46,493 nucleotides of DNA. It comes from Alphaproteobacteria bacterium. Lineage in GTDB: Bacteria; Pseudomonadota; Alphaproteobacteria; RS24. Positions 6,020-11,241 of the stretch are shown in pieces. Numbering within the stretch: position 1 is the stretch's first letter; each line of letters opens with the position of its first letter. Made by a program: the position numbers and the translations under genes. The notes under the pieces were generated by a model, which saw nothing but the letters and a program-made list of their open reading frames with translations, did no database searches and was not told the DNA's origin. The stretch lies in NCBI GenBank assembly GCA_029253645.1, contig JAQWZC010000134.1, positions 1 through 46,493 of the forward strand, written 5' to 3'.

Positions 6020-8338
6020 TTAGCCGCAATGCTTGTCGGCCGTACCTTGCCAATCCTTGAGCAGGGGAAAGGCCGTCACCGCATCGCGCCATCGGGTTTG
6101 AGCTTGGGGGCGTGAGAATATTTTTTGCCGCATGGCACAGGCTTGCGTGCCGCGTTCAAGCTCAATGAATAATGCCGCCAGCCCAAGCCGCGCGCCCATG
6201 CCGACCGGGTCATCGGCCGGTGTGCGTTGCGCCAAAGAAGACAAGGCGCGGGCGGCTTCGAGACCACGCTGATTGGCCTGCAAAGCGGCGGCGCGCCAAA
6301 ACCAAGCTGATGGGCGGCGCGGAAAATTGGCCGCCAATATTTCGGCACTTTCCAGCGCACGGCTCGGCTTATCGCGCGCCAAATCATGCTCGATAAGGGT
6401 CTCCAATAAAACTGCATGCGGGCGACCTTGCAAATCAATCAGCCCACGCAAAAATCCATAATGGCCATCCAAATCCGGTTTTTTGAGCAAGCCGCGCAAA
6501 TGTTTTTTCCAATGCGCCAAAGTCACGGCAGCCAATTCTTCATCCGCCGGTTCCAGCAAAACCAATAATCTATCGCCATCGCCGCGCGCCATAATATAGC
6601 GCAGCGCTTGGGGGATGAACGGGCGGATATCGCCGCCATCCTCAACAAAGCCGCCCCAGCTATAGCCGAAAGCCGTGCTGTCCAAATCGGCCAGAAAGGC
6701 GGTTTCAAAAGCCGCTTGATGCACGGCCAGTCGATTGCTGGCGGGACAGCCCGGTGGGCATTGGCTGTTGCGCCATAAGCGATAGAGAATATGCCCGCCA
6801 CGCGCCGTGATGCGCAACTTCCCTTTATCCTCGCCCGCCTTTAAGCGCGCCTTAATCGCCTCGGCCAAGAGCCGCACCCGCATGCCGAGAAACAAGCGAT
6901 AGGCCGGTTCATCGGGGCCGATACCGGTTAAATAAGCATCCGCCGCCGGCCAGTCTGCGCCTTGGGCGGCATGACGCGCCAGCACAATACGCGCACGCAA
7001 ATCGAGCAAACCATTCAGCACCTCAACCGGTGTCGGCGGCGGCGCATCAATCGGTTTTTGAACTTGGATAAATTTTTCTTTGCGGCGGTGTTTTTTGGCC
7101 AATTCAACCAAAGCCGCATCGGGCGCTTTATCGGCGGTTAATTGCGCCAGCACAATCAGCTTATCCAGACGCTCGGCCTGCGGACCGGTGGCGGTGATTT
7201 TGCGCGCCGCGCGCAAATGGTCAATGGCCAAAACCACCGCGCCCAAATTGAGCCGCGCCACCCCCATTTGATAATCAACCTGTCGCTTCAAGCCATCGGG
7301 CAAAAGCTGATAATAGGGTTTTAAATCAGGCCAGCTATTCACCAGCTGGCTATATTGGCCATCGGCAAAAGCGCGGCGCATCACCCGCAGGCTGGGGCCG
7401 GGTGCATAATCCATCGCCTGCACCAAAAGCTGGTCGCGGGCAATCAGTGCCAAAGCGGCGCGCGCGCTTTCCGGCGTGCCGCGCAAAGCCGGTTCCAAAA
7501 GCGCGACAATCTCATCGGCGGGGCGTCCCTCACCGACCGCCAGTCGGGCCAAACGCAGCGCATCATTGGCCGGACGTCCGGTCAGGGGCGTCGCCTCGAC
7601 TTCCGCGTCTTGTTGCGAGGCGGTGGAGAAAAGCGGGGTTGGCGGCTGATAGCCGGGCGCGGTGATGCGCGCATAAAATGCCTCAACCGATTGCTTAAAG
7701 GCCGGTGCTCCGGCGCGCGCCAAGGATTGCCGCAAACGGCTCAGCGTGTCTTTCGCCGCCGCCAAGCGCCCGCCCTCTATTTGCGTGCTGGCCAGCCCAT
7801 ACATGGCGCGCTGCACCAAAACCGGATGCTTGAACTCAAAGGTCAATTGCTGCATGCGCTTGCTGGCCTCAATCAAGGCTTGTCTTTTATCATTAGCCGA
7901 AATATGGCGCACTGCGACAGCCAGAGAACTCCATGCCGTGGCATAGGCGGCAGCGACGCGCATGGATTCAATATCCGCCCAAAGCGTGGAGGATAGCAGG
8001 CTTTCATAATCAAGCTCATTGCCGCGCACGCGGTCTTCTGCCATGCGGCGCATATCGGCCATGATCTGATTTAACCGCTCAGCCGCTTTGACAAAAGGCA
8101 CCAGCTCCAACGGCCCGAGCGGCCCGTCATAACACGCCTCCATCGCCACGGAATACTCATCCATCGCCGCCAAATAGGGCGCGGCATCATCGGCCAGCGC
8201 GGCCAGTATTTTGGGCGCGCTCAGCGTCAATAAGTCCGGCGGTGAGCTACAGGCGCGCGCCGTTTGCGGAGCGAAAAACGCCGCGACCAGCAAAAACGCC
8301 ATGAGTTTGACAGACGGGGAAAAGAGACAGCGCATCAT
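6020..8338 (-). CDS. Large predicted periplasmic protein with helical/TPR-like repeats, function unknown
   Basis: 772-aa ORF with N-terminal signal peptide (VKLMAFLLVAAFFAPQTARA) and Ala/Leu-rich helical repeats; last gene of the ExbB-ExbD-ExbD-vWA operon. Confidence 0.7.
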   Translation of the reverse strand: MMRCLFSPSVKLMAFLLVAAFFAPQTARACSSPPDLLTLSAPKILAALADDAAPYLAAMDEYSVAMEACYDGPLGPLELVPFVKAAERLNQIMADMRRMAEDRVRGNELDYESLLSSTLWADIESMRVAAAYATAWSSLAVAVRHISANDKRQALIEASKRMQQLTFEFKHPVLVQRAMYGLASTQIEGGRLAAAKDTLSRLRQSLARAGAPAFKQSVEAFYARITAPGYQPPTPLFSTASQQDAEVEATPLTGRPANDALRLARLAVGEGRPADEIVALLEPALRGTPESARAALALIARDQLLVQAMDYAPGPSLRVMRRAFADGQYSQLVNSWPDLKPYYQLLPDGLKRQVDYQMGVARLNLGAVVLAIDHLRAARKITATGPQAERLDKLIVLAQLTADKAPDAALVELAKKHRRKEKFIQVQKPIDAPPPTPVEVLNGLLDLRARIVLARHAAQGADWPAADAYLTGIGPDEPAYRLFLGMRVRLLAEAIKARLKAGEDKGKLRITARGGHILYRLWRNSQCPPGCPASNRLAVHQAAFETAFLADLDSTAFGYSWGGFVEDGGDIRPFIPQALRYIMARGDGDRLLVLLEPADEELAAVTLAHWKKHLRGLLKKPDLDGHYGFLRGLIDLQGRPHAVLLETLIEHDLARDKPSRALESAEILAANFPRRPSAWFWRAAALQANQRGLEAARALSSLAQRTPADDPVGMGARLGLAALFIELERGTQACAMRQKIFSRPQAQTRWRDAVTAFPLLKDWQGTADKHCG

Positions 8339-8340
8339 AT

Positions 8341-9486
8341 CTATTCCAAATTGGCCAGAAACGGCGCCAGCTCATCATGAAACCGGTCGTCAAATATCAG
8401 CAAAGCCAGCGTCTTCATTAATTGGCGTTCCGCCGCCAAAGTGGCCGCCGTGCCACCGCCCAATCGGGCGAGACGGCGAAAGACCGGCATGACGCCTTTT
8501 TTTATCAAATCAACCCCCGAGCCGGTCGGGTCGCCGCGCCCCAAAAGCGCACGATTGGCCTCGACGCGACTGTCCAGCAATGACAAGCGGCCACCGCGCG
8601 ATTTAAACCGCTCGGCAATATCGGCGGCTTCATTCAGCTCCCGCCCATGCGGCGGTGCATCGCCGATAATAATCACCACACGTTGCGCCCCACTGCGCCA
8701 GCCAATCGCGCCCTCCACATCGCGCAAGGCTTGCGTCACCGCTTCGGGATGGTCGCCGCCGCCCAGCGCATCAATGCCGCTCATAAAGCCGCGGGCTTTT
8801 TGAATGTCAAAACTGGGCTGCGAGATGCGCGTGACGAATTCCGGGTCATTATAATCGCGATAAGCAATAATGCCGAAGCGCGCCAAAGGCACAAGGCCGC
8901 GCACATATTCCGACAGCTGCGCCATGCGTTGGCGCACATTGCGATGCACCCAGACCATTGAGCCGGTGGCATCAATGGCAAAGACCACATCAATGCCGGT
9001 TTTTTGCAAATGCTCAATATAATCGGCAAAACTTTGCGGCACGCCGGAAATCAAACCGCCGCCGGGCAAAGCGCGTTGCGTCACCGCCGCGCTGGGCAAT
9101 GGCATGGCGGGTGCAATGGTCGCCATTTGCGCATTATCCATCATGAGATCATTAAAATCGGCCTCAAGCGGCACTTCCAAAAGCTCGGACAGGTCAAGCT
9201 CGGCCTCAGCCAGGCGCGGCAGCTCAACCGGTATATCTTGCGGCAGTTCAAGGTCCAGCTCTTCGGGTCCGGCATCACCGGCCGAAATGACAATACTGTC
9301 AGCCGCCGCCCCGCCGCCGCGCTCGCCGCCAAATAACAAGACCAGCACCACGCCGACCGCCAGCACATGGGCCACCACAGAAGCCGCCAAAAGCGACCAC
9401 CAAATGCGCGGCGGCACCGCCACCAAACGTGCCCGCATACGGCTGAACCAGCCGCGTTTCTCGGGGGTTGTGACGGTTTCACTCAT
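8341..9486 (-). CDS. Membrane-anchored von Willebrand factor A (vWA) domain protein
   Basis: One N-terminal TM (WWSLLAASVVAHVLAVGVVLVLLFGG), acidic linker, then vWA: DVVFAIDATGSM (MIDAS), FGIIAYRDY, GGGDHPEAVTQAL, VVIIIGDAPPHG. Confidence 0.85.
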   Translation of the reverse strand: MSETVTTPEKRGWFSRMRARLVAVPPRIWWSLLAASVVAHVLAVGVVLVLLFGGERGGGAAADSIVISAGDAGPEELDLELPQDIPVELPRLAEAELDLSELLEVPLEADFNDLMMDNAQMATIAPAMPLPSAAVTQRALPGGGLISGVPQSFADYIEHLQKTGIDVVFAIDATGSMVWVHRNVRQRMAQLSEYVRGLVPLARFGIIAYRDYNDPEFVTRISQPSFDIQKARGFMSGIDALGGGDHPEAVTQALRDVEGAIGWRSGAQRVVIIIGDAPPHGRELNEAADIAERFKSRGGRLSLLDSRVEANRALLGRGDPTGSGVDLIKKGVMPVFRRLARLGGGTAATLAAERQLMKTLALLIFDDRFHDELAPFLANLE

Positions 9487-9899
9487 GGCGTCGCATCGCT
9501 TTTCAGTTCGGTTTTAAGCCTGATTTCGCCCACACCTGCCGCCGCCATAGCGCGGCGAAACGCCAATAATTGCTTGGCCGTGGCGCGGCGATCAGCAATC
9601 AGTTCAAGCGGCAAGCCTTGCGCGGCAATGCCTTTTTCAACCACCAAATCACTGACCTCGCTAAGCGTGACCGGCTTGATGTCGGAGAGATAAAACCCGT
9701 CATCTTGTTTCAGCCAAATGCTCAGCGCTGCGCCTTCATGTTCGGACTGCACCGTGCTGCGCGCCACTTCCAAACCCGAAGGATGATTGGTCGAGGGGCG
9801 ACCGGCAATCAGCACGAATAGGATTAATAAAAACACCACATTAATGAGCGGCAAAAGGTCGATGGATTTCATCTCGCGGCGGGTATTTTTCAACTGCAT
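9483..9899 (-). CDS. ExbD/TolR family protein (Asn in place of the expected TM Asp)
   Basis: Start at internal ATG 9899: MQLKNTRREMKSIDLLPLINVVFLLILFVLIAG...; single TM and C-terminal ExbD-like domain; overlaps the vWA start by 4 bp. Confidence 0.85.
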   Translation of the reverse strand: MQLKNTRREMKSIDLLPLINVVFLLILFVLIAGRPSTNHPSGLEVARSTVQSEHEGAALSIWLKQDDGFYLSDIKPVTLSEVSDLVVEKGIAAQGLPLELIADRRATAKQLLAFRRAMAAAGVGEIRLKTELKSDATP

Positions 9900-9900
9900 A

Positions 9901-10320
9901 TCAAAAATCCGCCAAATCAATATCAAACACATCGCGCTCCAGCGTGATGGATTGCGCGCCCGCGCCTTGCAGCGCATCCATAATATCCGTGACTTGCTGA
10001 ACATTGGCCGCACCGGCCGGCATCAGCACCATGATTTGCTCGTCATTTTGCGCCGTCAGCTTGGCCGTCTCGCGACGCAAAAAAGCCGTATCAATGGGCG
10101 CGCCATTCCAATTTAACGCGCCATTCGCGCCCAGCGTAATCACCACAGGCGGGGCCGCACTGGTGGCACCGCCCGTGCCGCGTGGCGGGGCCAAACGGCT
10201 TTGCCCATAAGTGACAAAATCCGAGCCGAGCAGAAAAAACAGCAGCAGCAGAAATATCATATCAATGAGTGGGGTCAGACCCATAAATCCGGCGCGGCGC
10301 GGGCGGCGAGCAAGTTGCAT
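9901..10320 (-). CDS. ExbD/TolR family protein (canonical TM Asp)
   Basis: RRPRRAGFMGLTPLIDMIFLLLLFFLLGSDF TM motif with Asp; periplasmic domain follows. Confidence 0.9.
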   Translation of the reverse strand: MQLARRPRRAGFMGLTPLIDMIFLLLLFFLLGSDFVTYGQSRLAPPRGTGGATSAAPPVVITLGANGALNWNGAPIDTAFLRRETAKLTAQNDEQIMVLMPAGAANVQQVTDIMDALQGAGAQSITLERDVFDIDLADF

Positions 10321-10331
10321 GAAGCCGCTCC

Positions 10332-11099
10332 CTAACCTTGCGCCTTTGTCTCGGCGCGCACCAATATTTCGGTCAGCGCGTCTTCCACCATATCGCGCAC
10401 GCCATCAACCGCATTATTGAAAATGGCGGCCAATATGGAAAACGGCAAGGCCACGCCCAGACCGAAAGCCGTGGTTAACAGCGCCTCCCAAATGCCCGAG
10501 GCCAGCAGCGCCGTATCCGCCCCACCTATGCCCTGGCCGACGCCTTGAAAAGCGACAATCATGCCCAACACTGTGCCCAATAAGCCGAAGAGCGGCGCCG
10601 AGGCGGCAATCAATTCAAGCACCCAAATTTGGCGTGATAAATGGCGCACCAAAAATTGCGCGCGGCGGGTCAATTCCTCGCGCAGCACGGCGGCGGATAA
10701 TCTATCGCCACTGCTTTGGCTGAGCGCAAAAGCAATGAGCGGGGCCGCCGGATGCACCAGCGCATCAAGGCGCGCCGCCAATCCGTTTATATTGCCACGG
10801 CGCATATCGGACAGCGCCTCTTCAAAACCTTGCGGGCGAAAAATATCCATGCGGTAAAATTCATAAAGTTTAATCGCCGCAATCGGCACGCCGACGGCCG
10901 AGAGCAGCGCAATCATCCAAGTCACCGCGCCGCCTTTGGAAAACACCAAAGACCAAAAACCGGGTGCGGCGGTTTCTTGCGCGCTCTGCTGAGCGGGCTG
11001 GGCGAGCGCCGGAAATAACGACGCATCCATCAGCGCTGCCGATAGCGATACGCCAAGGGTCACAAACACAAAAACCGGAATGAAAAACCGACGGGTCAT
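10332..11099 (-). CDS. MotA/TolQ/ExbB proton channel family protein
   Basis: APLFGLLGTVLGMIVAFQGVG...IWEALLTTAFGLGVALPFSI hallmark of ExbB/TolQ; N-terminal signal/TM and Ala/Gln-rich periplasmic extension. Start 11099 or in-frame ATG 11111. Confidence 0.93.
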   Translation of the reverse strand: MTRRFFIPVFVFVTLGVSLSAALMDASLFPALAQPAQQSAQETAAPGFWSLVFSKGGAVTWMIALLSAVGVPIAAIKLYEFYRMDIFRPQGFEEALSDMRRGNINGLAARLDALVHPAAPLIAFALSQSSGDRLSAAVLREELTRRAQFLVRHLSRQIWVLELIAASAPLFGLLGTVLGMIVAFQGVGQGIGGADTALLASGIWEALLTTAFGLGVALPFSILAAIFNNAVDGVRDMVEDALTEILVRAETKAQG

Positions 11100-11123
11100 A
11101 GATACCTCCATAGATACCTCCAA
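11100..11123 (-). repeat. 12-bp tandem duplication of an SD-ATG unit (GGAGGTATCTAT)
   Basis: Minus strand: TTGGAGGTATCTATGGAGGTATCTATGACC; two SD+ATG modules in the same frame. Confidence 0.9.
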
Positions 11124-11241
11124 TGAATGCCTTAATGCGGGCAACGCCTATTTAAATGTCACGCACAAAAATGCCGCGTCCACAAATGCCGCGCCCAGAA
11201 ATACTTGAAGCTTGGCAAGAAAAGATAGCTTACCCAAAAGC

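Follow-up and report, generated by a model that had tools for sequence, protein, structure and literature searches.

A TM-anchored vWA protein in the TonB slot of an ExbB/ExbD operon, a candidate force transducer of PS1-clade Alphaproteobacteria

The five-gene operon and its distribution

The window analysed here is the whole of a 46,493 nucleotide stretch of DNA, positions 1 to 46,493 of contig JAQWZC010000134.1 (C126) in assembly GCA_029253645.1. The genome containing this contig is 1.68 Mb and 96% complete, and its nearest named relatives are PS1-clade/Rhodobiaceae Alphaproteobacteria. A reading of the open reading frames identified a gene for a vWA protein of 381 residues on the minus strand, the plus strand being closed over the same positions. 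Five tightly spaced genes run from 11144 down to 6020 in the order ExbB, ExbD1, ExbD2, vWA and TPR-like solenoid, and the vWA gene is the fourth of them (Table 1). The start of the vWA gene overlaps the stop of ExbD2 by 4 bases, and the TPR gene begins 2 bases past the vWA stop. The start of ExbB is uncertain, either TTG at 11144 or an ATG nearer 11099, and its N-terminus is leader-like. The true start of ExbD2 was judged from relatives to be the ATG at 9899.

Table 1. Genes and features of the vWA operon, with their positions in the window.
Feature	Position	Strand	Basis
ExbB/TolQ-type protein, putative pentamer subunit	10332..11144	minus	PF01618 7.2e-25
ExbD1, putative axle subunit bearing the Asp that carries the proton (D20, PLIDMIF)	9901..10320	minus	PF02472 1.3e-19
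ExbD2, putative axle subunit, Asn in place of that Asp (N20, PLINVVF)	9483..9899	minus	PF02472 5.7e-11
ExbD2 N20	9840-9842	minus	Asn where the essential Asp is expected
TM-anchored vWA protein, 381 aa, operon gene 4	8341..9486	minus	Pfam, alignment
TM helix, residues 28-54	9325..9405	minus	AF2 helix at about residues 26-52, block pLDDT 79-91
Ser36 and His40, in the TM	9379-9381; 9367-9369	minus	invariant 20/20
Motor-box-like segment DSIVISA, residues 63-69	9280..9300	minus	register comparison with TonB
Periplasmic linker, residues 70-150	9037..9279	minus	conservation in alignment
vWA domain, residues 151-381	8344..9036	minus	Pfam VWA_4/VWA
MIDAS D172/T174/S176; D245; D276	8959-8973; 8752-8754; 8659-8661	minus	invariant 20/20
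TPR-like all-helical solenoid, 772 aa, N-terminal signal sequence	6020..8338	minus	weak TPR_16/YbgF matches, AF2

A scan of public PS1-clade/Rhodobiaceae genomes yielded 19 loci, of which 18 have the complete set of five genes in unchanged order; the 19th is cut at a contig end. Three of the six genera sampled in the family (g1, g4 and g6) have the vWA gene. It is missing from each of the six g3 genomes sampled, and two of these genomes are 99% complete. Outside the family, a single clear full homologue, in genome G053, was found among 385 genomes of the class. It displays 42% identity, keeps the His of the anchor, has Ala for Ser, and is likewise accompanied by the TPR gene. No ExbB or ExbD lies beside it, and the two ExbD genes of G053 are located in Ton-type and Tol loci. 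In this homologue (L051:2831-4009) the anchor and the vWA domain are in one frame with a stop codon between them, reflecting either a split gene or a sequence error. The preliminary description had made co-occurrence with ExbB and ExbD a test of its proposal: the two are adjacent in all 18 uncut close-family loci, and the expectation fails for G053. Matches to the vWA profile in the phylum and plasmid searches were vWA domains of other proteins, and those examined in the phylum sample had neither a comparable anchor nor motor neighbours.

The putative motor subunits were compared with those of E. coli. In ExbB, the pore residues, aligned with E. coli ExbB Thr148, Glu176, Thr181 and Pro190, are conserved, and these include the TM3 Pro that contacts the Ser-His pair. 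Ser34 and Trp38, the TM1 residues of ExbB that touch the TonB Ser/His in the cryo-EM structure (PMC12215075), were not evident; they align with Gly and Ala and no Trp is nearby, in a TM1 alignment that is itself uncertain. The residue aligned with E. coli ExbD D25 is D20 in ExbD1 and N20 in ExbD2, the Asp and the Asn each being invariant in 19 alignment rows. PADLOC, used to check for membership of the anti-phage system Zorya, gave no match for the vWA, TPR, ExbB or ExbD1 proteins. Elsewhere, on contig C36 of G000 (L055:1419-3138), a small gene of the MotA/ExbB type (PF01618 1.3e-9), weakly similar to ZorA, is followed by a 216-residue protein with an Asp-bearing TM and then by a third membrane protein, the latter two without a family match.

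The AF2 model of the TPR protein was all helical (pLDDT 82.9). A Foldseek search with this model returned generic solenoids only (TMq up to 0.26); the top match, a Campylobacter flagellar periplasmic scaffold, had a TMq of 0.18 and was not regarded as a meaningful likeness. Among 289 genomes of the class, the TPR gene was seen only alongside the vWA gene, in four genomes, and this confinement to vWA-bearing genomes suggests that the two proteins are a functional pair. Five Cys residues of the TPR protein are nearly invariant, C30 at the end of the signal sequence, C69, C527, C531 and C771, and C734 is invariant, a pattern that suggests disulfides or an atypical lipoprotein site.

Anchor, linker and head of the vWA protein

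The vWA protein had previously been described as a short basic cytoplasmic tail followed by one TM, an acidic linker and a vWA domain. This organisation was recovered as claimed, and the TM, linker and vWA strings quoted for it were all found. In an alignment of 20 PS1-clade orthologues with 64-94% identity to this protein, both residues of the Ser36-x3-His40 pair in the single TM were invariant. The TM is otherwise variable, with 10 of 27 columns invariant, and holds no acidic residue. Conservation of the TM His in orthologues had been named as a further test, and the invariance of His40 throughout this close family answers it in the affirmative. Alignment with the TMs of TonB and TolA bore out the TonB-like reading of the pair, with Ser36/His40 in the register of E. 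coli TonB S16/H20 and TolA S18/H22. That the TonB TM His is a contact point with ExbBD, as had been assumed, agrees with the cryo-EM study of TonB-ExbBD (PMC12215075).

The motor-box-like segment DSIVISA, with S64 and S68 invariant in the 20 orthologues, lies 23-29 residues past His40; in E. coli TonB, the ISVTMV segment is at +25 to +30. No confident strand was modelled in this segment by AF2, the model of the vWA protein being poor overall (mean pLDDT 49.7, 21 sequences). The periplasmic linker extends over approximately 95 residues. Its residues 98-150 are 53% invariant in the 20 orthologues compared to 55% in the vWA core, and a linker conserved to this extent appears to be more than a spacer. 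The vWA protein contains no Pro-rich region, unlike the TonB proteins of the Asp/Asn ExbD operons described below.

The head matched Pfam VWA_4 just above the cut-off (27.3 versus 27 bits), vWA models were matched by 13 of 13 aligned members (best 3.9e-10), and the PDB profile match was the vWA domain of inter-alpha-trypsin inhibitor H4 (4e-7). The MIDAS, earlier called largely intact, was found to be intact in sequence: D172, T174, S176, D245 and D276 are invariant in all 20 orthologues, D245 replacing the usual Thr. It may bind a periplasmic partner, for example the TPR protein, rather than the adhesion target first envisaged. A domain search for TonB_C (PF03544) gave no TonB match, and by domain content the vWA protein is not a TonB. 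Its TonB-like traits are the Ser-x3-His TM anchor and the dedicated ExbB/ExbD. The genome has its own TonB (L052:10453-11064, G000 contig C4), with TonB_C and no TM His; the TM His is present in the vWA protein and in the genome's TolA, unlike this TonB.

Asp/Asn ExbD pairs and the TonB slot

When 289 genomes of the class were searched with the profile of ExbD2, 33 of them yielded a match. Among 28 loci with an Asn-type ExbD that were examined, 26 have an Asp-type ExbD adjoining it; for loci beyond the PS1 clade the count is 23 of 25. The Asn stands in the second gene of an adjacent ExbD pair at L081-L106, L116 and L119, in many alphaproteobacterial TonB-type operons and in two loci of another class. 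The two loci outside the class likewise join an Asp-type to an Asn-type ExbD and have a TonB-like gene downstream, and some other loci carry Asp in both ExbD, as is the case for the tonB1-exbB1-exbD1-exbD2 genes of SYK-6 (PMC8599685). In an ExbD tree of 61 rows the Asp- and Asn-types were separate, with two label changes compared to 19.5 for shuffled labels, in an alignment that included the Asp/Asn column as one of 129 and with weak support (74) for the central split. A literature search found no paper on Asp/Asn ExbD pairs; no description of the fixed pair was met with among the papers searched, and it is new here.

In these operons the gene behind the Asn-type ExbD mostly encodes a TonB-type transducer; TonB_C was detected in 7 of 10 tested, and most such transducers have [S/A]-x3-His in the TM. 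In operons of the type ExbB-ExbD(Asp)-ExbD(Asn)-TonB (for example L083, L096, L098 and L106), TonB occupies the same slot as the vWA protein, in the same order and behind the same paralogous ExbD pair. The alphaproteobacterial TonBs of these operons share with it the [S/A]-x3-His anchor and have, some 20-30 residues beyond that anchor, a beta-rich segment comparable in placing to the motor-box-like segment of the vWA protein. They end in TonB_C, whereas the vWA protein ends in vWA and has the TPR gene behind it. At five loci from two families the transducer in the TonB slot ends in a different, unnamed C-terminal domain. Transducers with a TonB-like anchor were seen in this slot at L082:1872-2735 (reverse strand of the locus), L088:1860-2771, L092:1888-2736 and L097:1887-2762, and their C-terminal domain of approximately 120 residues, with conserved Cys and Trp, had no Pfam or NCBIfam match.

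The first 115 or so residues of the vWA protein were compared by hhalign with 22 TonB-slot transducers, taken from other Asn-type-ExbD operons and not selected for the His. The score was 40.0 (probability 90), and the best of 143 column shuffles scored 14.1. Asp/Asn ExbD pairs are dispersed across Alphaproteobacteria and mostly precede a TonB-type protein, so the vWA protein takes the place of TonB in what appears to be a common motor. The profile match and the common slot make replacement of the head of a TonB-type arm by vWA, on a motor already lopsided, the simplest history. The vWA protein probably arose in this way, by exchange of the C-terminal domain of a TonB-type arm for vWA; the direction of the exchange is one that we infer. 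Among the papers searched, none was found to describe such a relation to alphaproteobacterial TonB operons, with a shared motor and exchangeable heads.

A published class of vWA proteins and the proposed role

The vWA force transducers were first described by Williams-Jones et al. 2025 (PMC12204202), with the type locus in Tichowtungia aerotolerans. According to that paper, members have a TM with an SHLS motif, a disordered linker with a motor box and a vWA domain, and are neighboured by one tolQ, two different tolR and a TPR gene; the full SHLS motif is found in "many" members, and AF3 complex models dock the transducer via the His. By its anchor His, vWA domain and neighbour genes the present protein is a member of this class. 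The two are alike in the Ser/His TM anchor, the linker of about 100 residues, the vWA domain, tolQ, two tolR and TPR. The present locus differs in belonging to PS1-clade Alphaproteobacteria, in its gene order ExbB-ExbD-ExbD-vWA-TPR, in the Asn of ExbD2, as far as the tolR pair is described there, and in having only the Ser-His half of SHLS; the Leu-x3-Ser half is absent, V47 and L51 standing there. With the class published in 2025, the force-transducer idea as such is not new. The same paper describes a second family, the TPH-vWA proteins, which likewise have a TM-anchored vWA beside a TolQ-type gene. Their TM bears an Asp like that of ExbD, and ExbD itself is lacking; membership was ruled out here by a TM without acidic residues and by the two ExbD genes. 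At L061:1294-2295, a vWA protein that has an Asp in its TM (SALDLFASALGVFILMAILLFPY) fits the TPH-vWA family.

We consider it likely, from the sequence comparisons, that the vWA protein serves a dedicated, proton-driven ExbB/ExbD motor as its force-transducing arm, and the preliminary description's view of it as a force-transducer candidate gains support from the invariant His, the adjacent ExbB and two ExbD, and TonB in the same slot elsewhere. In such a machine ExbB would form a pentamer and ExbD1 and ExbD2 the axle, with one Asp, that of ExbD1, performing proton transfer. The vWA protein would dock on the outside of ExbB via Ser36/His40, and the ExbD periplasmic domains would engage its motor-box region, so that rotation of the axle would pull the linker and hence the vWA head. 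The head would hold a partner through its MIDAS; co-occurrence makes the periplasmic TPR protein of the operon, or some part of the envelope that it scaffolds, the likeliest candidate. This arm reading is favoured by the five-gene operon in 18 of 19 loci, the invariant Ser36/His40 and MIDAS, an N-terminus profile that matches TonB-slot transducers far above shuffled controls, the conserved ExbB pore residues and ExbD1 Asp, the occurrence of TPR only with vWA, and the independent proposal of the same architecture as a force transducer in PMC12204202. Counting against it are the lack of evident Ser34/Trp38 in ExbB, the missing second half of SHLS, and the vWA/TPR pair of G053, which has no ExbB/ExbD beside it and carries the in-frame stop between anchor and vWA.

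The same observations may be read in other ways. The vWA protein could be a regulator, docked on ExbB by Ser/His: its MIDAS would sense a ligand or the state of a partner and gate the proton channel, and the load would fall to ExbD2 or the TPR protein. The high conservation of linker residues 98-150, which are not low-complexity, would suit such a role, as would the Asn of ExbD2, which suggests another function for one axle subunit, and the Ser-His network of TonB/TolA has itself been proposed to signal to the channel (PMC12215075). The presence of TonB in the same operon slot of related loci favours a load-bearing arm, and we regard a regulator as unlikely. A mere coincidence of Ser and His in a simple membrane-anchored vWA protein expressed beside a motor would agree with the differing ExbB contact residues and with the pair being just two residues of the SHLS motif. 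It is hardly credible given that both are invariant in 20 orthologues despite a variable TM, that the profile match to TonB-slot anchors is far above the shuffled controls and that the operon is fixed across related loci.

Similarity to E. coli TonB-ExbBD and TolA-TolQR extends to the Ser/His register, the ExbB pore residues and the ExbD1 Asp; the E. coli systems differ in their homodimeric ExbD/TolR, the TonB/TolA C-terminal domain and the ExbB Ser34/Trp38 contacts. A surface adhesion or gliding machine would have its likeness in Myxococcus AglRQS, where one TolQ-type and two TolR-type subunits energise a system with the vWA adhesin CglB, an outer-membrane lipoprotein. The set of one ExbB-type and two ExbD-type subunits with a MIDAS-bearing vWA protein recalls this system, and gliding or adhesion is suggested for the family in PMC12204202. 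The vWA head here is, unlike CglB, tethered to the inner membrane by the TM and the linker, no other gliding gene is in the operon, and AglQ and AglS both carry Asp (PMC9389320) where ExbD2 does not. The TM anchor and the ExbD2 Asn ruled out membership of AglRQS/CglB, and a machine of this kind is quite improbable.

For the likely force-transducing arm, we tentatively propose, at rather less than an even chance, that its motor is naturally lopsided, 5:1:1, with an Asp ExbD and a fixed Asn ExbD, and that it is an alphaproteobacterial platform shared by TonB_C, vWA and unnamed heads. The two ExbD proteins would then form a heterodimer. The proton stoichiometry and stepping of a lopsided 5:1:1 motor, if real, would differ from the 10-step symmetric model. 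The Asp/Asn pair bears on whether both axle subunits of 5:2 motors need the proton-carrier, and on whether paired ExbD/TolR homologues form heterodimers, which for AglQ/AglS was stated as unknown (PMC9389320). A published class of proposed proton-driven arms is now placed in small marine bacteria, and the link of vWA arms to ordinary TonB operons suggests that pulling heads can be swapped as modules.
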